Assembly (NCBI RefSeq): GCF_008389435.1
Contig: NZ_VUYS01000020.1
Span: 1-64,000 of the forward strand
DNA: 64,000 nt
Direction of reading: 5' to 3'
Source: Candidatus Nitrosocosmicus agrestis
GTDB lineage: Archaea > Thermoproteota > Nitrososphaeria > Nitrososphaerales > Nitrososphaeraceae
The translations under genes and the position numbers were made by a program. Below the pieces are notes generated by a model. That model made no database searches, was not told where the DNA came from, and worked only from the letters and a program-made list of their open reading frames with translations. Numbering within the stretch: position 1 is the stretch's first letter; the number at the start of each line of letters is the position of its first letter. Positions 8,577 through 25,661 of the stretch are shown here, one piece after another.

Positions 8577-9224
8577 TCACCTAAAATTTATCGATTGCAA
8601 ATCGTATTGATTCATTCTGTGGTAAGAATGAGACAGTTTTTGAAGTTCACCTAAATAGTTGCTGTATCTCTTGCTAAAACCAGTCTCGTCCGCGTCGAAA
8701 TGTATATCAATATTGTCAGGCTCCGATATTAATGCAAAACGTGTGAGTAATTGTCTTACCTCGGGGTCATATTTTAGTCGAACATATTCGTTCACAATCA
8801 CAGACAATAATAATACCAAATTTCTGCGAAGGCCTAAGATATGATAAGAATGTAACAAATTGATTTTGGCATCAAAAGTATCACCATTTAGAGCAGATAA
8901 TGAAAACTCAAACAAGAGATTCTTTAATGGTACACCCGAACCACTGTCAAGGATTGCTAAATACTTTCTAGGACTTTCAACTAAATTAATTACCGAAGCA
9001 TCCTTGAGAAATTTATTCAACAATCTTATTATATCTCTAACTCTCAACGTATCTTTTCCAATTTCTAAAATACCGAGTCTAACGGCTATACGATCGATAT
9101 CTTCAAAATACAACTCGGTATCTATGTCGACTGCTTCTGATAATTTTCCAATACCACCGTTTGAAATTTCTATAGGTACATACTCGATGAGCCTTTCAAT
9201 ATCTTTGAAAATTCCATATGCCAT
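8577..9224 (-). CDS. hypothetical protein
   Basis: A 215-residue soluble, acidic, mostly helical protein beginning MAYGIFKDIERLIEYVPIEI. Composition and codon use look genuinely coding and the reading frame is long for this AT-rich region. I do not recognise a domain. The segment LLHSYHILGLRRNLVLLLSV is hydrophobic but contains charged residues, so it is more likely a buried helix than a membrane span. It is a stand-alone gene with AT-rich flanks. Confidence 0.65.
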   Translation of the reverse strand: MAYGIFKDIERLIEYVPIEISNGGIGKLSEAVDIDTELYFEDIDRIAVRLGILEIGKDTLRVRDIIRLLNKFLKDASVINLVESPRKYLAILDSGSGVPLKNLLFEFSLSALNGDTFDAKINLLHSYHILGLRRNLVLLLSVIVNEYVRLKYDPEVRQLLTRFALISEPDNIDIHFDADETGFSKRYSNYLGELQKLSHSYHRMNQYDLQSINFR

Positions 9225-10192: not shown

Positions 10193-10213
10193 TATACGCA
10201 TAATCTGCATATA
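10193..10213. promoter_or_regulatory. dyad operator, copy 1 upstream of copper-storage gene
   Basis: An inverted repeat: TATACGCA, 5-bp spacer TAATC, TGCATATA. The half-sites differ at one position from a perfect dyad. It is the distal of two copies, 52 bp from the second. Confidence 0.6.
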
Positions 10214-10244: not shown

Positions 10245-10265
10245 TATACGCAATATTTGCATATA
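10245..10265. promoter_or_regulatory. dyad operator, copy 2 upstream of copper-storage gene
   Basis: An inverted repeat: TATACGCA, spacer ATATT, TGCATATA. It ends 62 bp before the ATG of the copper-storage gene. A TATA-like run (TATTTTACATTTTTAA) begins right at its downstream edge, so a bound protein would abut the BRE/TATA element. The site near 17591 has the same spacer. Confidence 0.65.
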
Positions 10266-10327: not shown

Positions 10328-10684
10328 ATGAATATTTCTCTTATGAATCAAAAAAATCAATCTTGTATAGACATGTGTAACCAATGTGCATGTGCTTGCG
10401 AAGCTTGTTGTACGGAGTGCATGTCTATGTCAAATACTGAAATGTCTGGCATAATGGGCCGATGTATGATGATGTGCAGAGACTGTGCTAGTATGTGTAT
10501 GATGTCTTCAATGATGATATGTAGAGGAAGTGAATTTGCAAAACAAATGTGTGAAATGTGTGCGACAGTATGTGATGCATGTGCAACAGAATGTGAAAAG
10601 ATGGGTGAGAAGATGCCAGCATGCAAAGAATGTGCTGAAATGTGTAGAAAATGCGCCCAAGAATGTAGAAACATGATGAGCTAA
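10328..10684 (+). CDS. four-helix-bundle copper-storage protein (Csp/DUF326-like)
   Basis: A 118-residue protein with 23 cysteines and many methionines, arranged in helical CxxxC, CxxC and MxxxC spacings (for example CNQCACACEACCTEC and CATVCDACATEC). This is the hallmark of Csp-type four-helix bundles that hold many Cu(I) ions inside the bundle. No signal peptide is seen, so it is the cytosolic (Csp3-like) kind. Copper storage makes sense in an ammonia oxidiser, whose AMO and electron carriers are copper proteins. The gene stands alone, with two copies of the dyad operator upstream, the same dyad as in the sulfonate-type ABC locus. Confidence 0.9.
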   Translation: MNISLMNQKNQSCIDMCNQCACACEACCTECMSMSNTEMSGIMGRCMMMCRDCASMCMMSSMMICRGSEFAKQMCEMCATVCDACATECEKMGEKMPACKECAEMCRKCAQECRNMMS

Positions 10685-16220: not shown

Positions 16221-16844
16221 TCATTTAAGCACCTTTAATTCATTATTATGATAATCAACAAATAGATTCAACCAATTTATTATATGATTTAGTTTACTGT
16301 TTACTTTTCGACATGGAAAGTAATCATCGAAACTTTCAGTCCTGTCTTTGATATATTGAATGGTTCTTTCTATAATGCTTTTCTCATAGGAGGAATTAAG
16401 ATGATGTCTTATCTTTAGGAACCTACAAGCCTGTGGGTACCAGGTGCCACCATCTGTTGATACTGGATGCTTTCCATGAATTTCAACTAGTCCTGATAAG
16501 AATCTCTCAGCAACAAACATGTTTCTCTCCTTAGATATTTTTAGCAAAAAAAGTGCGAGAATTTGCCGGTTTTCCGGCTCAATTGTAACCCATAACCAAA
16601 TGTACTTAGGTCCAACTTTAATCAGTGTCTCGTCTACGATGAATTCTGAAATGCTTTTCCTTTTGATCGATATCTTTTGCGGTTTATATTTTTGAATCCA
16701 ATTCCAGATTGCAACATGGCTTCTCTTGACCTTATGTAAAAAGAACATTGCTTTGGCAACGCCTCTGGTTGACAAACCCAAAAAATACAAATACAAAGCA
16801 CGACTAATATTTGACGAAGGTGTTCTGTTTCTTTTGTTTAACAT
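16221..16844 (-). CDS. IS6/IS240-like DDE transposase
   Basis: A 207-residue transposase. It has a helix-turn-helix-like N-terminal region (LSTRGVAKAMFFLHKVKRSHVAIWNWI) and a DDE catalytic core: first Asp in EFIVDETLIKV, second in VSTDGGTWYP, and the Glu in the EKSIIERTIQYIKDRTESFDDYF region. Slightly short for the family but apparently intact. Possible imperfect ends are TATAAAGACTAT (about 16177-16188) and AGTCTATAAA (16891-16900, read inverted), giving an element of about 0.7 kb; this is tentative. A decayed relative lies at 19949-20326 in the opposite orientation. Confidence 0.85.
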   Translation of the reverse strand: MLNKRNRTPSSNISRALYLYFLGLSTRGVAKAMFFLHKVKRSHVAIWNWIQKYKPQKISIKRKSISEFIVDETLIKVGPKYIWLWVTIEPENRQILALFLLKISKERNMFVAERFLSGLVEIHGKHPVSTDGGTWYPQACRFLKIRHHLNSSYEKSIIERTIQYIKDRTESFDDYFPCRKVNSKLNHIINWLNLFVDYHNNELKVLK

Positions 16845-17590: not shown

Positions 17591-17611
17591 AATATGCAAT
17601 ATTTGCGTATA
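17591..17611. promoter_or_regulatory. dyad operator upstream of ABC ATPase
   Basis: AATATGCA, spacer ATATT, TGCGTATA. It is nearly the reverse complement of copy 2 before the copper-storage gene. A TATA-like TTTAAATT starts at 17617 and the ATPase ATG lies 57 bp downstream of the dyad. Confidence 0.65.
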
Positions 17612-17668
17612 GTAGTTTAAATTGCATACATGACTTTGATTAAATAATTTCCTGTTTTATAATACAGT

Positions 17669-18541
17669 ATGTCTAACTTGGAGAGCCTCATTCAAACGAA
17701 AAACAAATCAGTTCTTGAACTTAAGAATATTACAAAAGAATATCAAGATAACAAGAGCAGAGTTAAAACAAAGCACACTGTTATTAACAATCTTAATTTA
17801 AATATCAAAGATGGAGAGTTTGTTACCATTGTTGGTCCATCAGGATGTGGAAAAAGCACATTATTAAATTTAGTTGCAGGACTTGATCAAACCTTTGGAG
17901 GATCTATCCAAGTTGATGATAAACCTCTGGCGTTATCACCAAGTACGGACCGTGTGGTGGTATTTCAAGAAGGAGCTTTATTTCCTTGGTTAACCGTTTA
18001 CGGCAACATAGAGTTTGGCTTAGCGATCGGCAAAGTTCCAAAAAAACAAAGAAATGAAAAAGTCAAGAAACTTATTGAGATGATCCAGCTAACCAATTTT
18101 ACTAATGCATATATTCATCAACTTTCGGGAGGAATGAAACAAAGGGTAGCTATTGCCAGAGCTTTAGCGTTAGATCCAAAAATACTTTTGATGGATGAGC
18201 CATTTGCAGCCTTGGATGTTCAAACTAAAAGAATGCTATACTCTCACCTTTTGCGAATACATGATGAAACTAAAAAGACTATTTTGTTTGTGACTCATAA
18301 CATTCACGAAGCAGTTGCCTTGGGTGACAGGGTGATTATCATGTCTCCAAAATTAGCCAATATAAAGAAGGAAATATCTGTGAATATACCGCGTCCAAGG
18401 AGTATAGACCACCCCTTTGTAGAGACAATTACAAAAGAAATAATCTCTGAATCAGATGGGTTATCAATAAAAAATGGTCTAATTGGAATTGATCCAAAAA
18501 ATAAGGATCAGGAAAATGATAATTCTACAACCACATTTTAG
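17669..18541 (+). CDS. ABC transporter ATPase, NitT/TauT/Ssu family
   Basis: The ATP-hydrolysing subunit of an importer for a small anionic compound such as a sulfonate. The 290 residues show all nucleotide-binding motifs: Walker A GPSGCGKST, Q-loop FQEGALFPWLTV (the LFPWLTV form is typical of SsuB/TauB/NrtD), signature LSGGMKQRVAIARAL, Walker B ILLMDEPFAALD and the H-loop FVTHNIHEAV. It is followed after 6 bp by a permease gene, so they form an operon. A dyad operator lies upstream. It is the only ATPase gene in the locus, though two permeases and two binding proteins are present. Confidence 0.93.
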   Translation: MSNLESLIQTKNKSVLELKNITKEYQDNKSRVKTKHTVINNLNLNIKDGEFVTIVGPSGCGKSTLLNLVAGLDQTFGGSIQVDDKPLALSPSTDRVVVFQEGALFPWLTVYGNIEFGLAIGKVPKKQRNEKVKKLIEMIQLTNFTNAYIHQLSGGMKQRVAIARALALDPKILLMDEPFAALDVQTKRMLYSHLLRIHDETKKTILFVTHNIHEAVALGDRVIIMSPKLANIKKEISVNIPRPRSIDHPFVETITKEIISESDGLSIKNGLIGIDPKNKDQENDNSTTTF

Positions 18542-18547
18542 CCTAAC

Positions 18548-19372
18548 ATGTTAAAAATACAAGATCAAGTTAGCTCGGTCAGAAAAATAGACCTAGAAGA
18601 ACTTTCTAACACAATCTTATTCATTGCAGTTTTTATAGGTATATGGCAGTTGGCATATTTAAGTGGCATTTGGCCCAAAGTATCATTACCATCACCATTG
18701 CTGGTTCTAGAATCATTTATCGAGTTGATTCAAGATAATACCTTACTAGTAAGTATCGGGGTGACACTTTATAGATTATTGATCGGATTTGCAGCTTCAA
18801 TAGCTATAGGTATAGGTATAGGACTTGCAATGGTAAAGTTTACAGGATTTGGTAAAACAATGAGTTCTTTTGCTATAGGGTTACAATCTTTTCCAAGTGT
18901 TGCGTGGGTTCCATTTGCGATACTTTTGATAGGTCTAAATGATGCGGGGATTCTGTTTGTGGTTATCATGAGCTCAGTATTTTCAGTAATGATGTCTGCA
19001 TATAGCGGCATACGAAATATACCACCAATCTATCTAAAAGCTGCAAGGAATATGGGAGCTAAAGGTTTCTCTTTATTCAGACATCTGATGATCCCAGCGG
19101 CTACTCCAGCGCTAATAATAGGAATAAAACAGGCTTGGTCTTTTGCATGGCACGCATTGGTAGGAGCAGAAATATTGATGGCCGCATCCATAGGAATAGG
19201 ACACATAATGTTAATAGGCAGGGAATTTCAGTTAATGGACCAGATAATAGCATCCATGATCACAATTTTTGCTTTAGGAATGATATTTGACAAAATAATC
19301 TTTGCCAAATTAGAGGACAAGGTCAGAGAAAAATGGGGATTAAGACAGGAACAAGATATTGAAAACAAATAA
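18548..19372 (+). CDS. ABC transporter permease A, NitT/TauT/Ssu family
   Basis: A membrane permease of 274 residues with about six hydrophobic segments. It has the conserved cytoplasmic EAA-type loop that docks with the ATPase (YLKAARNMGAKGFSLFRHLMIPAATP). It starts with ATG 6 bp after the ATPase stop. From the codons for EELSNTILF to one base past the stop it is identical, base for base, to permease B (21885-22817). Only the first 16 residues differ. Confidence 0.92.
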   Translation: MLKIQDQVSSVRKIDLEELSNTILFIAVFIGIWQLAYLSGIWPKVSLPSPLLVLESFIELIQDNTLLVSIGVTLYRLLIGFAASIAIGIGIGLAMVKFTGFGKTMSSFAIGLQSFPSVAWVPFAILLIGLNDAGILFVVIMSSVFSVMMSAYSGIRNIPPIYLKAARNMGAKGFSLFRHLMIPAATPALIIGIKQAWSFAWHALVGAEILMAASIGIGHIMLIGREFQLMDQIIASMITIFALGMIFDKIIFAKLEDKVREKWGLRQEQDIENK

Positions 19373-19373
19373 A
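18594..19373 (+). repeat. 780-bp perfect direct repeat, copy 1
   Basis: Identical by line-by-line reading to 22039-22818 (offset 3445). The identity starts inside the permease gene and stops one base after the stop codon. Confidence 0.9.
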
Positions 19374-19948
19374 ATATGTTAAGCACAACAGTATATTCAC
19401 CTAACTTTACCAAAAGTAACGTCAACTAAAGCGCATAGAACATTTTTTAACCCGAAAACGTCTTTAAAATGGGATAATCGATTGATATTTTGAGTAGTGA
19501 TGTCTATTAAAGGTACGATTTATCAATTCCGATTCTCCATTCTGCAAAACAACACAGATCATGATTAATTTCTTCTAAAATCGTGATTTAATAGATTCAG
19601 GTCATTTATTTCTCAAATAGGAATTGGTCTTTAGAATAACATTTAATTTTTGATAATTATAAAGTATACAACTGTAGCGCAAGGATATGCTTTGATCAAG
19701 CCTTTTAACTATATATATTTCATCTATGGACTCGCTCATTTAGCGAAAACTATAGCTTAAATATGGTCTATTCTATTATCTTTACAAGAAACATGATACC
19801 TTCAAAGTATATGTTTACAATGGACTAAATTTGTTTTTTTACAGGCCCTTCTCTTAAAGAAGACTCCGAAAGACCATTTCAATTATCAAAATGAAATCAC
19901 ATTTTATTTACCAAAAAGTAGAATTAAATTCAAAAATATTAGTAACTA
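19374..19948. other. intergenic with likely IS debris
   Basis: About 575 bp between permease A and the decayed transposase. No intact gene. It presumably includes the eroded 5' part of the transposase pseudogene, which I could not follow reliably. Confidence 0.35.
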
Positions 19949-20326
19949 AAGATATCCACTGGGAAAAGAAAAATTCTAGATCATATTGTAGATGAAACTT
20001 TAGTCAAAGTGAGTTCTAAAAAATACATCATAATTTGCAAGGCAATTGAGCCTGATAAAGGGAAATACTCTCACAAAATATAACTCAAGAAAGAAACATG
20101 CTTAATTCAGAAGGACTTCTGTCAGGAGTTGTCTGTCAAAAGCTACGGAAAACGCCCTTTATCCAAAGAAGATGGAATTTGGTATCACAACCTTGTAGAC
20201 ATTATAGACTCAAACTTATATTCATTCTTGTTAGAGAAAAACCTGATTAAAAGAACAAAACAATATCTCAGGATTCCTAAACGTTTTATTTATTGTATTT
20301 TTGTAGGCCAAAGAATTGTAAGTTGA
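19949..20326 (+). pseudogene. decayed IS6/IS240-like transposase
   Basis: Pieces of the same transposase family as 16221-16844 can be read across at least two frames. KIS..KRKILDHIVDETLVKV...AIEPDKGK matches the intact KIS.KRKSISEFIVDETLIKV...TIEPENRQ. After a TAA stop and frameshift, YGKRPLSKEDGIWYH...LEKNLIKRTKQYL matches HGKHPVSTDGGTWYP...YEKSIIERTIQYI. The catalytic second Asp region is altered and the end is missing. It lies within the ABC locus, between permease A and the ComA-HTH gene, so an insertion event accompanied rearrangement here. Confidence 0.8.
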
Positions 20327-20570
20327 AGCATGCACGTACCTGGATTTGTTTCATTATTGAATATTGCACCGTAGAAACAAAACACATCAAATGAACTGGG
20401 TGATATAGAGTATGAAAAAGATACGTAGGCCATTTTATAGGAACTATTCTATCGTATGTGAAATCAGATTTTAAATACTTTGATCAACAGTATGAAAAAT
20501 TCGCTTATTATGCGAAAATTACTGCTAGAAAAGTATTTTAAAATAATAAAAATGCATATATCAATTTCAA

Positions 20571-20591
20571 TATATGTAAATTCTGCGTATA
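20571..20591. promoter_or_regulatory. dyad operator at the ComA-HTH gene start
   Basis: TATATGTA, spacer AATTC, TGCGTATA, ending only 7 bp before the ATG. If the transcript is leaderless, the dyad covers the TATA box and start site, which suggests autorepression. An extra half-site TGCATATA lies at 20553-20560. Confidence 0.65.
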
Positions 20592-20598
20592 ACTTTTC

Positions 20599-21585
20599 AT
20601 GTTAGAGGCTTTAAGCGAGGATAGAATTGATCATAAAAAACCGCGTCATGATGGAATGACATACATAATAGATAAATTTCAAGGTTTTGATAAAGAGAAT
20701 TTTGAAACCATAGCAGATTATATTGATATAGTCAAAATATATGGTGCGTTTCCTCTCTTATTAAAGGAAGACAGTCTGATGAAGAGAATTGATTTTTATC
20801 ATAGTTCTAATGTATTGGTATCTACCGGCAGCACTTTAACTGAATTCGCAATCCGAGAAAAAGTATTTGAAAAGTTTTTAGAGAGTGCTAAAAGAATCGG
20901 TTTTGACCTGATAGAAATAAGTGAAAACAGCATTAGCCTATCTTTAGAAGAAAAGAAGAAAATAATCAAACTTCTCGACCTCTATGACATGCGAGGACAA
21001 TGGAAAATTGGAAAGAAAGATCCACGAAGACAACTTTCAGTAGATGAGACTGTCAAAAAAATGAACGAAATTTTGCAAATTAGTCATGAAAAAATAATTC
21101 TTGAGGCAAATCTAGGATATAATGTAGGAATATATGATGAAAAAGGCGATATAAAATGGAACCTCCTATCAGCTATTACATCTAAGATCTCTCCAAATAG
21201 TATAATATTTGAAGCTCCATTGGAAATTCAACAAGCTGTACTAGTTGCGGAATTTGGACAGAGGGTAAATCTAGGAGAAATCCGATTAAATAATGTATTA
21301 TCAGTTGAATCTCAAAGAAGAGGATTCCTTTCAAAGGCAAGTTTTAGTATTACGCCAGTTAAGAAAGGACCAGAAGGCAGTCCTGCTACTAAATTCATTC
21401 ACTATATTATAAGAAGTAAACACCCAATTGATCAAAGTGAATTGATTTATGTAACTAATCTCCCAAGAAGGACAGTTCAAGCGTCAATTGAAGAGTTGAA
21501 AGAACAAGGTTTGATTATTGAAAAAAATAGTCTAGACGATACTAGAAAGAAAGTATATAATTTGGTCAAGAATGAATGGATATAG
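20599..21585 (+). CDS. ComA-like phosphosulfolactate synthase domain fused to winged HTH
   Basis: A 328-residue two-domain protein. Residues about 15-250 follow the ComA/PF02679 TIM-barrel family: NVLVSTGSTLTEFAI, IGFDLIEISENSISLSLEEKK, IGKKDPRR, SIIFEAPLEIQQAVLVAEFG and VNLGEIRLNNVLSVES. ComA joins sulfite to phosphoenolpyruvate in coenzyme M synthesis, a pathway not expected here. From memory, ComA has (G/A)RESG after the IxxE strand and LRRGLRGDT near the end; here these read EANLGYN and SQRRGFLSKAS, so catalysis may be lost. Residues 266-328 look like a MarR/winged HTH (DQSELIYVTNLPRRTVQASIEELKEQG, then a wing). With the dyad at its own start and sulfonate-type transport genes around it, I infer a sulfonate/sulfite-sensing regulator. 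Confidence 0.8.
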   Translation: MLEALSEDRIDHKKPRHDGMTYIIDKFQGFDKENFETIADYIDIVKIYGAFPLLLKEDSLMKRIDFYHSSNVLVSTGSTLTEFAIREKVFEKFLESAKRIGFDLIEISENSISLSLEEKKKIIKLLDLYDMRGQWKIGKKDPRRQLSVDETVKKMNEILQISHEKIILEANLGYNVGIYDEKGDIKWNLLSAITSKISPNSIIFEAPLEIQQAVLVAEFGQRVNLGEIRLNNVLSVESQRRGFLSKASFSITPVKKGPEGSPATKFIHYIIRSKHPIDQSELIYVTNLPRRTVQASIEELKEQGLIIEKNSLDDTRKKVYNLVKNEWI

Positions 21586-21815
21586 TTAGACAGCTTTCAT
21601 TGAATCTTTTCTTTCAAAAAACCTAAATGAATAGTTTTAGATTACCTCCTATCGTAGTGACACAAGTTTTTAAAATTGTGTAATCATGATTGTAGAACTG
21701 TACAAAATATATTAATGAAATAGAAATTCCTCAAAAAATCTTCCTCTTGTAAACTCATGCTGTAATTAATCATATAAAATTAGCTAAAATGCAATTAAAA
21801 ATTTGATAACCATTG

Positions 21816-21836
21816 TAAGTGCCTCTTTTGCATCTG
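21816..21836. promoter_or_regulatory. weak dyad upstream of permease B
   Basis: TAAGTGCC, spacer TCTTT, TGCATCTG: 5 and 6 of 8 matches to the half-site consensus, 48 bp before the permease B start. Possibly a degenerate operator; it could be chance. Confidence 0.25.
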
Positions 21837-21884
21837 GGTAATAAAAATTGATATAACCGCGTTTTAATAATAATAAAGACTCAT

Positions 21885-22817
21885 TTGATTTCACCACCTG
21901 GAGACAAGGATAGGACCACCTCTAAGAACTCAAGCAATGAAAAAACATATCCAGGCGGTATTGAAGAATCGGATATAGGTTTTATAGAAGATAAGAATGA
22001 TAATAAAATTAAATCACCATTCAAAAAAAAAATCAAAATAGAAGAACTTTCTAACACAATCTTATTCATTGCAGTTTTTATAGGTATATGGCAGTTGGCA
22101 TATTTAAGTGGCATTTGGCCCAAAGTATCATTACCATCACCATTGCTGGTTCTAGAATCATTTATCGAGTTGATTCAAGATAATACCTTACTAGTAAGTA
22201 TCGGGGTGACACTTTATAGATTATTGATCGGATTTGCAGCTTCAATAGCTATAGGTATAGGTATAGGACTTGCAATGGTAAAGTTTACAGGATTTGGTAA
22301 AACAATGAGTTCTTTTGCTATAGGGTTACAATCTTTTCCAAGTGTTGCGTGGGTTCCATTTGCGATACTTTTGATAGGTCTAAATGATGCGGGGATTCTG
22401 TTTGTGGTTATCATGAGCTCAGTATTTTCAGTAATGATGTCTGCATATAGCGGCATACGAAATATACCACCAATCTATCTAAAAGCTGCAAGGAATATGG
22501 GAGCTAAAGGTTTCTCTTTATTCAGACATCTGATGATCCCAGCGGCTACTCCAGCGCTAATAATAGGAATAAAACAGGCTTGGTCTTTTGCATGGCACGC
22601 ATTGGTAGGAGCAGAAATATTGATGGCCGCATCCATAGGAATAGGACACATAATGTTAATAGGCAGGGAATTTCAGTTAATGGACCAGATAATAGCATCC
22701 ATGATCACAATTTTTGCTTTAGGAATGATATTTGACAAAATAATCTTTGCCAAATTAGAGGACAAGGTCAGAGAAAAATGGGGATTAAGACAGGAACAAG
22801 ATATTGAAAACAAATAA
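21885..22817 (+). CDS. ABC transporter permease B, NitT/TauT/Ssu family
   Basis: A 310-residue permease, identical from residue 52 on to permease A. It differs in a longer, hydrophilic N-terminus (MISPPGDKDRTTSKNSSNE... to KSPFKKKIKI). Its start is TTG; no in-frame ATG precedes the conserved part. No ATPase gene adjoins it, so it presumably shares the ATPase at 17669 or the distant one at 46538. The two binding-protein genes follow on the same strand. The perfect identity to permease A at the DNA level points to recent gene conversion or duplication. Confidence 0.9.
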   Translation: MISPPGDKDRTTSKNSSNEKTYPGGIEESDIGFIEDKNDNKIKSPFKKKIKIEELSNTILFIAVFIGIWQLAYLSGIWPKVSLPSPLLVLESFIELIQDNTLLVSIGVTLYRLLIGFAASIAIGIGIGLAMVKFTGFGKTMSSFAIGLQSFPSVAWVPFAILLIGLNDAGILFVVIMSSVFSVMMSAYSGIRNIPPIYLKAARNMGAKGFSLFRHLMIPAATPALIIGIKQAWSFAWHALVGAEILMAASIGIGHIMLIGREFQLMDQIIASMITIFALGMIFDKIIFAKLEDKVREKWGLRQEQDIENK

Positions 22818-22818
22818 A
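22039..22818 (+). repeat. 780-bp perfect direct repeat, copy 2
   Basis: The partner of 18594-19373. Sequences upstream and downstream of the repeat are unrelated between the two copies. Confidence 0.9.
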
Positions 22819-22902
22819 CCAATAATCGGTAAATATATGATTTACTGACATCACACTTGTATTTTAGAGTTAAGGACTCCTACAAGTGCAAAATCATCAT
22901 AT

Positions 22903-22923
22903 AATTAGCATTTTTTGCCTATT
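22903..22923. promoter_or_regulatory. weak dyad upstream of binding protein 1
   Basis: AATTAGCA, spacer TTTTT, TGCCTATT: 5 and 6 of 8 matches to the half-site consensus, ending 42 bp before the TTG start. Listed because every other promoter of the locus carries a better copy. Confidence 0.3.
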
Positions 22924-22965
22924 TCTAATTACTAATAGATAGTCATTACAATTCTTTACTTGTAA

Positions 22966-24111
22966 TTGAATTCGGCAACAAAACTAGGGATTTCGGCAAT
23001 TATAATAGTAGCAGTGATATTGTCTTCATCTTCTAACATTAATTGGGAATCTCTTGTAGGAATTTCGAACAGATCTAATGAGCATAGTAATCAACATACT
23101 GCGAGTGATAATATATCACTAAACGTAGCATACTTTCCAAATCTCAATCATGCATCAGCCATTATCGGATTTCAAAACGGAAATTTCAAAAACATTCTAG
23201 ATTCGGCTAACAACTCCAAAAACATATCCATAAATGAGAGAGTTTTTAGTTCATCCCCAGCAGTTATCGAAGCACTATACGCTGGACAGATCGATGTTGC
23301 ATATGTGAACCCAAATTCAATTATTGATGGATACATATTAGCAGGGTCAGATGGGTTTAAAATCATCTCAGGAGTGTCTAGCGGTGGAGCTTCATTCATT
23401 GTAAGGAATGACTCAGGTATAGAATCACCAAGCGACTTGGGTGGAAAAAAATTCGCCAGTCCACAGTTAGGTAACACACAGGATGTAGCTTTAAGAAAAT
23501 ATTTGCAGGATAACGGTTTTGACACACTAAAAAATGGAGGTAACGTGACTGTAATCAACCTAAAACCCGGCGATATAATTTCTCAATTCCAAAATAAAGA
23601 AATTGATGGTGCATGGGTACCCGAACCTATAGCCACTATACTACACCAACTTTATCAAGGCAAAATTCTTGTGGATGAAAGAGATCTATGGCCAGATGGC
23701 AAATTTGTAACCAGCGATATTATAGTTAGAACTGATTATTTGGAGCAAAACCCAGATGTAATCAAGAAATTACTTGAGGCACATGTTGACGAAACTAAAT
23801 GGATTTCCGAAAAACTAGCAGACACAAACAATACTGAAAATGTAGATGAGGTTGTAACTGACTTCAATAAGGGTTTATCAAAAATCACAGGGAAAACCTA
23901 TCCTGAAAATCAATTAAGAGAAGCACTCTCACATATCGATTATACCATTGATCCTCTTGCAGACACACTCCTTTCCATTTCAAATAGTTCTAATGATTTA
24001 GGATTTATTAAAACTGGAAAGAATTGGGATTACGAAATCACCAAATTATATGATCTAAGGATACTCAATCAGGTTTTAGAGGAAAAAGGAGAAAAACAAA
24101 TAAACTATTAA
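22966..24111 (+). CDS. ABC substrate-binding protein 1, NitT/TauT/SsuA-like
   Basis: An extracytoplasmic receptor of the SsuA/TauA/NMT1 type, 381 residues. The N-terminal hydrophobic segment (about residues 6-24) works as signal or membrane anchor. The mature part begins with SLNVAYFPNLNHASAIIGF and contains AGQIDVAYVNPN, GGASFIVRNDSGIES, DLGGKKFASPQLGNTQDVALR and DGAWVPEPIA, the usual ligand-pocket and lobe-crossing segments. The start is TTG. Codons 138-185 are identical in DNA to binding protein 2, and further downstream patches also match, while the rest has diverged, so the gene is a mosaic. Confidence 0.9.
   Translation: MNSATKLGISAIIIVAVILSSSSNINWESLVGISNRSNEHSNQHTASDNISLNVAYFPNLNHASAIIGFQNGNFKNILDSANNSKNISINERVFSSSPAVIEALYAGQIDVAYVNPNSIIDGYILAGSDGFKIISGVSSGGASFIVRNDSGIESPSDLGGKKFASPQLGNTQDVALRKYLQDNGFDTLKNGGNVTVINLKPGDIISQFQNKEIDGAWVPEPIATILHQLYQGKILVDERDLWPDGKFVTSDIIVRTDYLEQNPDVIKKLLEAHVDETKWISEKLADTNNTENVDEVVTDFNKGLSKITGKTYPENQLREALSHIDYTIDPLADTLLSISNSSNDLGFIKTGKNWDYEITKLYDLRILNQVLEEKGEKQINY
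23378..23520 (+). repeat. 143-bp perfect repeat, copy 1 (binding protein 1)
   Basis: Identical to 24877-25019 (offset 1499) and sharply bounded by diverged sequence, as in a gene-conversion tract. A second near-identical patch pairs about 23673-23790 with about 25173-25290. Confidence 0.85.
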
Positions 24112-24387
24112 CGAACACAAACAAAATTAAATAAATTTGCATTAAATCACTATACCAATAATCTGGAAGCCTCAGGTTTTGAATTAAAGAAATCATTTAA
24201 ACTTTTAATTCAATGCATATCTGACCATCCTCTAAAAATGTATCTAAATTTTCTCAGACATTATTTAAAAAGGGTATTCGTCGAAAAGTCTACCCAAAAG
24301 ATCGTTTCATTCCGCTATCGTGGAAAAACCCCAATTATTTGAGTTAGACAAGGTTGGGCCTTATTATAATTTATGCTACATACAAAA

Positions 24388-24408
24388 TCTACGCTTAAAC
24401 TGCATATA
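24388..24408. promoter_or_regulatory. dyad operator upstream of binding protein 2
   Basis: TCTACGCT, spacer TAAAC, TGCATATA: 6 of 8 and 8 of 8 matches to the half-site consensus. A TATA-like TTTTAAAA begins 2 bp downstream (24411) and the ATG lies 59 bp downstream. Confidence 0.6.
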
Positions 24409-24467
24409 ATTTTTAAAATTAGCGCATTGAACATAAATAATAAATGACTAATCCAATAAAATAAACA

Positions 24468-25661
24468 ATGAATCATAAAGTTAAAAGTTCATTGTTCAAA
24501 AGCCTCAGGGTTACTGAACAAAAGAAACACTCCATTCCATTGTTGTTGACAATGGTGGTAACTGCTGTGGCCCTTATCTCTGCTCCAATTTCAGTGGCTA
24601 GTGCCCAATCACCTGACAGTTCAAAGAAAACTCTCCGAATTGGCTATTTTCCTAATATTACCCATTCACAAGCAGTAATAGGATTGAATAATGGTGACTT
24701 TCAAAAAATAGTTGGTGAAAACATTAATATTGAAACAATCAGATTTAATGCCGGTCCTTCAGCAATAGAATCATTATTGGCGGGTAGAATTGATGCCACC
24801 TATATTGGACCTAATCCCGCTATTAATGGATACCTACAAACTAATGGAGAAGCTGTCAGAGTTATTGCAGGAGCTGCTAGCGGTGGAGCTTCATTCATTG
24901 TAAGGAATGACTCAGGTATAGAATCACCAAGCGACTTGGGTGGAAAAAAATTCGCCAGTCCACAGTTAGGTAACACACAGGATGTAGCTTTAAGAAAATA
25001 TTTGCAGGATAACGGTTTTAAAACAACTGAAAACGGAGGAAATGTAACTATATTGCCCATAGCTAATGCCGATATTCTAACGGTGTTCTTAAAAGGAGAT
25101 ATCGATGGTGCATGGGTACCGGAACCATGGGCATCCCGCTTAGTTCAAGAAGCAGATGGCAAAGTATTCCTAGATGAAAGAGATCTATGGCCAGATGGCA
25201 AATTTGTAACAGGTAACATTATAGTTAGAACAGATTATTTGGAGCAAAACCCAGATGTAATCAAGAAATTACTTGAGGCTCATGTTGAAGAAACCCTCAA
25301 GATAAATAACGATACTAAAGCCGCAGCCACTGAATTTAACACTCAGCTTAAAAAGATTACAGGTCAGGAAATAAACCCGGCTGTTCTGGATGAATCTTAT
25401 AGCCATCTGGAAATCACATATGATCCATTAAAATTGACGTTATTTAAGAGCGCAAACGATGCATATGATCTCGGATTCATAGAAAAGGGAAAAGACAGAC
25501 CAAATCTTTCAGGTATATATGACACGACAATCTTAGATGAAGTTCTTACAGAGAAGGGTCTCCAGCCTATAGGAAATACAGCAGGAAGTGTAAGTTTAAC
25601 TCAAACAAATAGCTCCAACACCCCAAACACTTCAAGTGCAGTGGCTGACATTGTGATTTAA
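24468..25661 (+). CDS. ABC substrate-binding protein 2, NitT/TauT/SsuA-like
   Basis: A 397-residue secreted receptor with a clear signal sequence (LLLTMVVTAVALISAPISVASAQS, about residues 25-48). The mature domain opens with LRIGYFPNITHSQAVIGLNNG and carries the family segments AGRIDATYIGPNP, GGASFIVRNDSG and DGAWVPEPWASR. The C-terminal tail is Ser/Thr/Asn-rich and may be a flexible linker. It has its own promoter and dyad operator, so it can be expressed apart from binding protein 1. Sulfonate or taurine is the likeliest ligand class given the ComA-HTH neighbour, but nitrate, thiamine precursors and others are bound by the same family. Confidence 0.92.
   Translation: MNHKVKSSLFKSLRVTEQKKHSIPLLLTMVVTAVALISAPISVASAQSPDSSKKTLRIGYFPNITHSQAVIGLNNGDFQKIVGENINIETIRFNAGPSAIESLLAGRIDATYIGPNPAINGYLQTNGEAVRVIAGAASGGASFIVRNDSGIESPSDLGGKKFASPQLGNTQDVALRKYLQDNGFKTTENGGNVTILPIANADILTVFLKGDIDGAWVPEPWASRLVQEADGKVFLDERDLWPDGKFVTGNIIVRTDYLEQNPDVIKKLLEAHVEETLKINNDTKAAATEFNTQLKKITGQEINPAVLDESYSHLEITYDPLKLTLFKSANDAYDLGFIEKGKDRPNLSGIYDTTILDEVLTEKGLQPIGNTAGSVSLTQTNSSNTPNTSSAVADIVI
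24877..25019 (+). repeat. 143-bp perfect repeat, copy 2 (binding protein 2)
   Basis: The partner of 23378-23520, inside the binding protein 2 gene. Confidence 0.85.

Follow-up and report, generated by a model that had tools for sequence, protein, structure and literature searches.

A candidate transcription factor derived from a phosphosulfolactate synthase-like enzyme, and its putative operators, in Candidatus Nitrosocosmicus agrestis

Results

Genes and Features of the Locus

We analyzed a stretch of 64,000 nucleotides from Candidatus Nitrosocosmicus agrestis (contig NZ_VUYS01000020.1, positions 1 to 64,000; hereafter the window), in which a single gene joins a barrel homologous to phosphosulfolactate synthase (ComA) to a C-terminal winged helix. 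This fusion gene lies among genes for an ATP-binding cassette (ABC) importer. A dyad with the consensus TAYGCR-N5-YGCRTA precedes the fusion gene, two of the importer genes, and a gene for a putative copper-storage protein (Csp). The features are listed in Table 1.

Table 1. Features of the locus, with window coordinates, strand, and the evidence for each (aa, amino acids; bp, base pairs).
Feature	Position	Strand	Evidence and remarks
ComA-barrel/winged-helix fusion protein, 328 aa, proposed regulator	20599..21585	+	PF02679; fold match 1qwg; full-length homologs
Degenerate phosphosulfolactate synthase-like TIM barrel, aa 12-244	20632..21330	+	PF02679; model; fold match; alignment
C-terminal winged-helix domain, aa 262-322	21382..21564	+	Model (three helices and two-strand wing); family profile matches
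NitT/TauT/SsuB-type ABC ATPase	17669..18541	+	PF00005; best NCBIfam matches SaoA, nitrate and taurine ATPases, none over cut-off
ABC permease copy 1	18548..19372	+	PF00528
ABC permease copy 2	21885..22817	+	99.5% identical to copy 1 across 791 bp
NMT1/SsuA-type substrate-binding protein 1	22966..24111	+	PF13379; TIGR01728 147 bits, below cut-off 163.5; no dyad upstream
NMT1/SsuA-type substrate-binding protein 2	24468..25661	+	PF13379; TIGR01728 189.9 bits, above cut-off 163.5; nearest solved chain TauA 6ssy
Cys-/Met-rich DUF326 protein, Csp type, 118 aa, proposed regulon member	10328..10684	+	PF03860, E = 6.5e-7
Dyad TATGTAAATTCTGCGTA	20573..20589	.	1 mismatch; -26 of the regulator's own gene; overlaps probable TATA box
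Dyad TATGCAATATTTGCGTA	17593..17609	.	Exact; -76 of ATPase gene
Dyad TACGCTTAAACTGCATA	24390..24406	.	1 mismatch; -78 of second binding-protein gene
Dyad TACGCATAATCTGCATA	10195..10211	.	Exact; -133 of Csp gene
Dyad TACGCAATATTTGCATA	10247..10263	.	Exact; -81 of Csp gene

Domain Architecture and Fold

The PF02679 (ComA) profile covers residues 12-244 of the fusion protein (E = 3e-64; 217 bits against a gathering score of 25.2), and the solved ComA 1qwg matches it by sequence (E = 2e-34). An alignment-based AlphaFold model of the protein, with a mean predicted local distance difference test score (pLDDT) of 85, matches 1qwg in fold (E = 7e-21; TM-score 0.88 by target length) and also B. subtilis YitD, 1u83 (E = 2e-14). 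In this model, the final 67 residues form three helices and a two-strand wing. The elements run in the order helix 262-274, helix 279-286, helix 290-302, strand 306-310, and strand 318-322, and block-mean pLDDT is 83-91 for residues 261-320. Winged-helix profiles matched most of 30 family members at E ≤ 0.01, namely MarR_2 in 21/30 and both HTH_11 and HTH_43 in 17/30. The window protein fails the equivalog cut-off of TIGR03849 (175.8 vs. 280 bits), as do the intact fusions tested (208-254 bits).

Active-Site Signature

The fusion family, including 28 intact fusions and 64 degenerate ones from ammonia oxidizers, was aligned with M. jannaschii ComA and B. subtilis YitD. Barrel positions common to these two enzymes and to at least 90% of the 28 intact fusions served as reference; the catalytic signature was thus judged by conservation and not by the published roles of single ComA residues. 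The 28 fusions with the whole signature (GWG, GGTL, EVGKK, RESG, and in most LRGDTFG) come from Thermoplasmata and a few Nitrososphaerota metagenome-assembled genomes (MAGs). The same blocks are altered together in the 64 ammonia-oxidizer sequences: R170 is replaced by N and S172 deleted in all 64, E133 is replaced by K in 63 and N227 by E in 61, R244 has become S or T, and G45, W46, and G47 (GWG), G75 (the second G of GGT), G107, and T247 are also changed. Retained are D20, D40, K43, E103, K137, E168, F204-E205, Q212, N224, and R240. Fusions at loci L049, L050, and L164 are eroded further, with E79, G135, and G173 gone too, and the importer still adjoins them; the upkeep of this class beside the importer argues for regulatory over catalytic retention. 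Separately, the RESG and RGDT blocks of the fusion at L147 (a Halobacteriales MAG) are changed in a way of their own, which may reflect an independent loss.

A first-pass annotation of the window had described a ComA-like barrel joined to a winged helix-turn-helix (HTH) domain at 20599 and had noted that the segments RESG and LRRGLRGDT, taken as conserved in ComA, are altered. Both descriptions are borne out: the first by PF02679, the 1qwg fold match, the model, and the family HTH profiles, and the second by the window protein itself, in which EGRESG reads EANL-G (one residue deleted) and RRGLRGDT reads RRGFLSKAS. The annotation had named a barrel with intact catalytic residues and a C-terminus without HTH match as the result that would speak against it, and had suggested an alignment of the catalytic residues. 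That alignment places R170, S172, R244, E133, and GWG among the changed positions; the signature is changed, and HTH profiles match most members.

Distribution and Phylogeny

Full-length homologs of the fusion protein are widespread in Nitrososphaeraceae and occur in a few Nitrosopumilaceae, and they reach Thermoplasmata and a few other archaeal MAGs at 36-43% identity. The same genome encodes a second fusion copy on contig 12 (62% identity) that has neither importer nor dyad, and the paralogs at L034, L035, L038, and L039 likewise have neither. All degenerate forms fall on one side of a 100/100 branch in an unrooted tree, in which some long branches meet near the enzymes, and the signature loss maps to this one branch. 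Because the tree is unrooted and long branches lie near the enzymes, the direction of change was read from the pattern of conservation as well. The natural reading of these data is that the enzyme would have gained its DNA-binding domain first and lost catalysis afterwards.

ComB (PF04029) was not found in the 17 genomes searched, including those with intact forms, with positive controls; this holds for the seven genomes searched among Thermoplasmata with the intact fusion (L144-L172). In these Thermoplasmata loci, the fusion has an intact ComA signature and mostly no importer nearby.

Dyads and Promoters

Within the window, five dyads occur at ≤1 mismatch, compared to a mean of 0.91 and a maximum of 4 in 100 shuffles. 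Pattern searches of the whole genome (3.22 Mb) returned 35 such dyads. The five in the window all lie before genes; of the 30 outside it, 24 lie inside open reading frames (ORFs) and six have no ORF start within 250 bp. Exact dyads number only three in the genome, all of them in the window. Dyads inside ORFs in several relatives were left out of the count of regulatory sites.

Across loci, a dyad at ≤1 mismatch is present in 21/60 fusion-gene promoters vs. 6/477 other promoters in the same loci. The latter six belong to four Csp genes and two divergent neighbors that share a Csp intergenic region. A spacer of 5 is preferred among all spacers from 0 to 13. Placement is also regular, with 17 of 22 fusion-gene dyads (≤1 mismatch) at -23 to -33 and 27 of 41 dyads of ATPase and binding-protein genes (≤2 mismatches) at -55 to -95. 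Most dyads of these transporter genes are at -57 to -90. The fusion-gene dyad of the window overlaps TTCAATATATG, a plausible TATA element, and the other window dyads lie approximately 30 bp upstream of a probable TATA box. In archaea, a dyad over the region from TATA box to start generally goes with repression and a dyad upstream of the TATA box with activation; the placement observed here suggests autorepression together with activation of the transporter genes. We infer that the dyad is bound by the fusion protein, since it precedes the fusion gene and not that of the paralog, its placement is conserved, and it is scarce elsewhere in the genome.

Importer Genes and Their Linkage

In 18 of the 25 degenerate loci with full flanks, importer genes are found no more than 5 kb from the fusion gene, which is often divergent from a binding-protein gene. 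The importer also adjoins the Thaumarchaeota fusions at L044, L143, and L149; because these intact-looking forms have the same neighbors, the importer link appears to predate the signature loss. The genome encodes only three homologs of the binding protein, two of them in the window. The nearest solved relatives bind taurine or sulfonates, and family membership places the importer in the sulfonate/taurine group. None of the importer proteins passes a taurine or alkanesulfonate equivalog, TauD (PF02668) was not found in the window genome, and SsuD (TIGR03565) has there only weak relatives, all below cut-off. Taurine gave no growth stimulation in N. viennensis (PMC4129164). Sulfonate uptake should not be assumed, given these results and the failure to find ComB.

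The first-pass annotation had placed the fusion gene amid NitT/TauT/Ssu transport genes, and an ATPase, two permeases, and two binding proteins do flank it. Searching for other ComA-HTH fusions and their neighbors, as it had advised, recovered the family and found the importer recurrently next to degenerate forms. It had also seen a shared dyad before the fusion gene, the ATPase, and a binding protein; these sites are found at 20573, 17593, and 24390, and two further sites at the Csp gene had been missed. Comparative genomics thus upholds its architecture, changed signature, transporter link, and shared dyad. Its "sulfonate-type" importer stands as a family resemblance (binding protein 2 passes TIGR01728) and not as a statement about the substrate itself; sulfite, PEP, and sulfonates, which it had put forward as possible ligands of the barrel, are candidates.

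Several duplications were observed among the importer genes. The two permease copies are 99.5% identical across 791 bp (18583-19373 and 22028-22818) with differing flanks, and the two copies of the relative G004 (L036) are 100% identical across 752 bp, which suggests repeated gene conversion within each species. Patches of near-identical DNA also occur in the two binding-protein genes (22966-24111 and 24468-25661), and the binding-protein genes of L062 (3380-4561 and 4897-6093) are 98.9% identical across 451 bp, again suggesting gene conversion. A decayed IS6-like transposase remnant lies between permease copy 1 and the fusion gene (19922-20391), with a related longer copy at 16221-16844.

The Copper-Storage Gene

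The Csp protein scores 29.5 bits against PF03860 (DUF326; gathering score 20.4), and of the three exact dyads found genome-wide, two precede its gene. Orthologs in relatives lie near the fusion gene or have the same dyads. Among the closest relatives, dyads are present in G013 (two copies), G003 (one mismatch), G031, G036, and G017; Csp genes at loci L135 and L138 also have them, as does that at L164 at two mismatches. No dyad within two mismatches was found at the distant Csp paralogs of G006, G025, G447, G452, and G035 or at the second copy in the window genome. G447, presumably N. viennensis, has an exact dyad between its fusion gene and the divergent gene for a binding protein; its Csp gene is located approximately 12 kb away and has no dyad. 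Csp is upregulated in N. viennensis under copper limitation (PMC7785015). The copper-response motifs published in that study (TTCSGSMTTTGWACYANT and the down-regulated motif) were compared with the dyad, and neither matched. The regulon probably extends to the copper-storage gene, and this reach would indicate copper or thiol homeostasis as much as sulfonate nutrition.

Two further genes were noted in these neighborhoods. A conserved protein without Pfam match is encoded at 8577-9224 (- strand) and lies near the Csp or fusion gene in several genomes. In 12 loci (L036, L037, L050, L213, and others), a gene for a two-domain rhodanese is situated at most 12 kb from the fusion gene. It was considered as a regulon member and left as a lead, since an exact dyad occurs close upstream only in L213 (61 bp) and most copies have none.

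Discussion

A Proposed Enzyme-Derived Regulator

The architecture of the fusion protein, the loss of its signature on a single branch, its linkage to the importer, and the enrichment, placement, and specificity of the dyads are direct observations. We propose, with a probability of roughly 70%, that the product of the gene at 20599 is a transcription factor with a phosphosulfolactate synthase as its ancestor and TAYGCR-N5-YGCRTA dyads as its binding sites. Comparison across many genomes suggests that it is a switch for the uptake system, its own gene, and the copper-storage gene.

In the proposed mechanism, an ancestral archaeal ComA would have gained a C-terminal winged helix, with the intact form surviving in Thermoplasmata and a few Nitrososphaerota MAGs, and the barrel would have lost its conserved catalytic signature in the lineage to ammonia oxidizers. 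The barrel would now most likely be a ligand-sensing domain with the former active site as the sensor, presumably for a small sulfur-containing or phosphorylated anion. The retention of K137, E168, and E205 together with the loss of R170, S172, and R244 suggests a small-anion ligand changed from that of ComA. Self-repression would be expected at the fusion gene, because the dyad spans the TATA-to-start region of its own promoter. At the ATPase, binding-protein, and csp promoters, where dyads lie approximately 30 bp upstream of the probable TATA box, we would expect activation or recruitment of basal factors when the ligand state changes. Activation of csp would be confined to some genera.

Several points weigh against this proposal. 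All winged-helix models score below their curated cut-offs in the window protein, of which MarR_2 reaches E = 7e-4 and 20.1 bits against a cut-off of 27 when this protein is searched alone. The relatives are not independent, which makes the Fisher p-value for the promoter enrichment (p = 5e-17) too small; even at ≤2 mismatches, the dyad occurs in only 29/60 fusion-gene promoters; and the TATA boxes were placed by eye. Intact Thaumarchaeota fusions have no such dyad and Thermoplasmata fusions mostly do not adjoin an importer, so the operator may have arisen later.

Alternative Explanations

The most viable alternative concerns the purpose of the switch and is compatible with an enzyme-derived regulator: the regulon may serve copper or thiol homeostasis, in which case the importer would transport a compound related to copper or thiols, and the barrel would sense a copper-linked thiol or sulfonate. 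We regard this as a serious possibility, though one that probably does not hold. In its favor are the two exact dyads, out of just three genome-wide, that stand before a Csp-type gene, the dyads at the most similar Csp genes in several genera, the failure to find TauD and the weakness of the SsuD relatives, and the copper-limitation and taurine results in N. viennensis (PMC7785015; PMC4129164). It fits less well with the taurine- or sulfonate-binding relatives of the binding protein, with the Csp gene of G447 that has no dyad, and with the difference between the dyad and the copper-response motifs.

Less probably, the barrel could still be an enzyme with altered chemistry, i.e., a trigger enzyme that turns over a sulfur- or phosphate-containing substrate and thereby controls its own DNA binding. 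The retention of D20, D40, K43, E103, K137, E168, and E205 is consistent with such activity, and the existence of fusions with the full catalytic signature makes a bifunctional stage plausible. However, R170, S172, R244, and E133 are invariant in the intact enzymes and have been lost from every or almost every one of the 64 degenerate forms, the importer still adjoins a class that is eroded further, and a search of 17 genomes, those encoding intact forms among them, found no ComB, the next enzyme of the coenzyme M pathway. We therefore consider this unlikely.

Still less likely is that another transcription factor binds the dyad and controls the ComA-winged-helix gene as a mere neighbor: co-occurrence is what assigns the dyad to the fusion protein, but no other DNA-binding gene was recognized in the conserved cluster, the dyad holds a fixed position on the promoter of the fusion gene itself, and the paralog without importer is also without dyad.

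Returning to the enzyme-derived regulator, we tentatively advance a broader claim, which we hold at slightly less than even odds. It would represent an undescribed family of archaeal transcription factors, in which a ComA-fold barrel has turned into a small-molecule sensor, with catalytic-looking, degenerate, and eroded stages extant, and which couples organosulfur or thiol status to an importer and to copper storage in ammonia-oxidizing archaea. Within a single domain architecture, the family offers successive stages between enzyme and sensor, and the operator shared with the copper-storage gene ties a sulfur-enzyme fold to copper, a metal central to ammonia oxidation. To our knowledge, specific regulators for which an operator and targets have been proposed are rare in these archaea; the protein, operator, and small predicted regulon are directly testable in cultured Nitrososphaera and Nitrosocosmicus.

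Comparison With Known Systems

The fusion protein shares with ComA (PF02679; M. jannaschii 1qwg, B. subtilis YitD 1u83) a homologous TIM barrel and the region of K137, E168, and E205. It differs from ComA in GWG, the second G of GGT, E133, R170, S172, N227, R244, and T247, in its fusion to a winged helix, in failing TIGR03849, and in the failure to find ComB in 17 genomes. Enzyme-derived winged-helix regulators and trigger enzymes are already known, such as MocR/PdxR with its aminotransferase fold, ROK repressors, and BirA. These likewise combine an enzyme fold with a winged helix, and sensing of a substrate-like ligand and autoregulation are proposed features in common; in contrast, the barrel described here comes from ComA, is archaeal, and has its helix domain at the C-terminus. 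We know of no such regulator with the ComA fold, and no ComA-HTH or ComA-derived regulator was found in the open-access literature searched.

As in NitT/TauT/Ssu importers, the locus encodes an ATPase, a permease, and NMT1/SsuA-type binding proteins, one over the TIGR01728 cut-off. It differs in having two near-identical permeases and two binding proteins, none of which passes a taurine or alkanesulfonate equivalog, and in a genome where TauD was not found and SsuD has weak relatives only. The Csp protein resembles other DUF326 proteins in being Cys-rich and over the PF03860 cut-off, with copper storage assigned by family; its subtype is distinct in being Met-rich and in the dyads before its gene. 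TrmB/TrmBL1, Lrs14, and MsvR have a similar winged helix, with weak profile matches to MsvR, Lrs14, and TrmB, and an unrelated sensor domain. TrmBL1 activates or represses depending on the position of its site, and the fusion protein may do likewise at its own promoter and at those of the importer and copper-storage genes.

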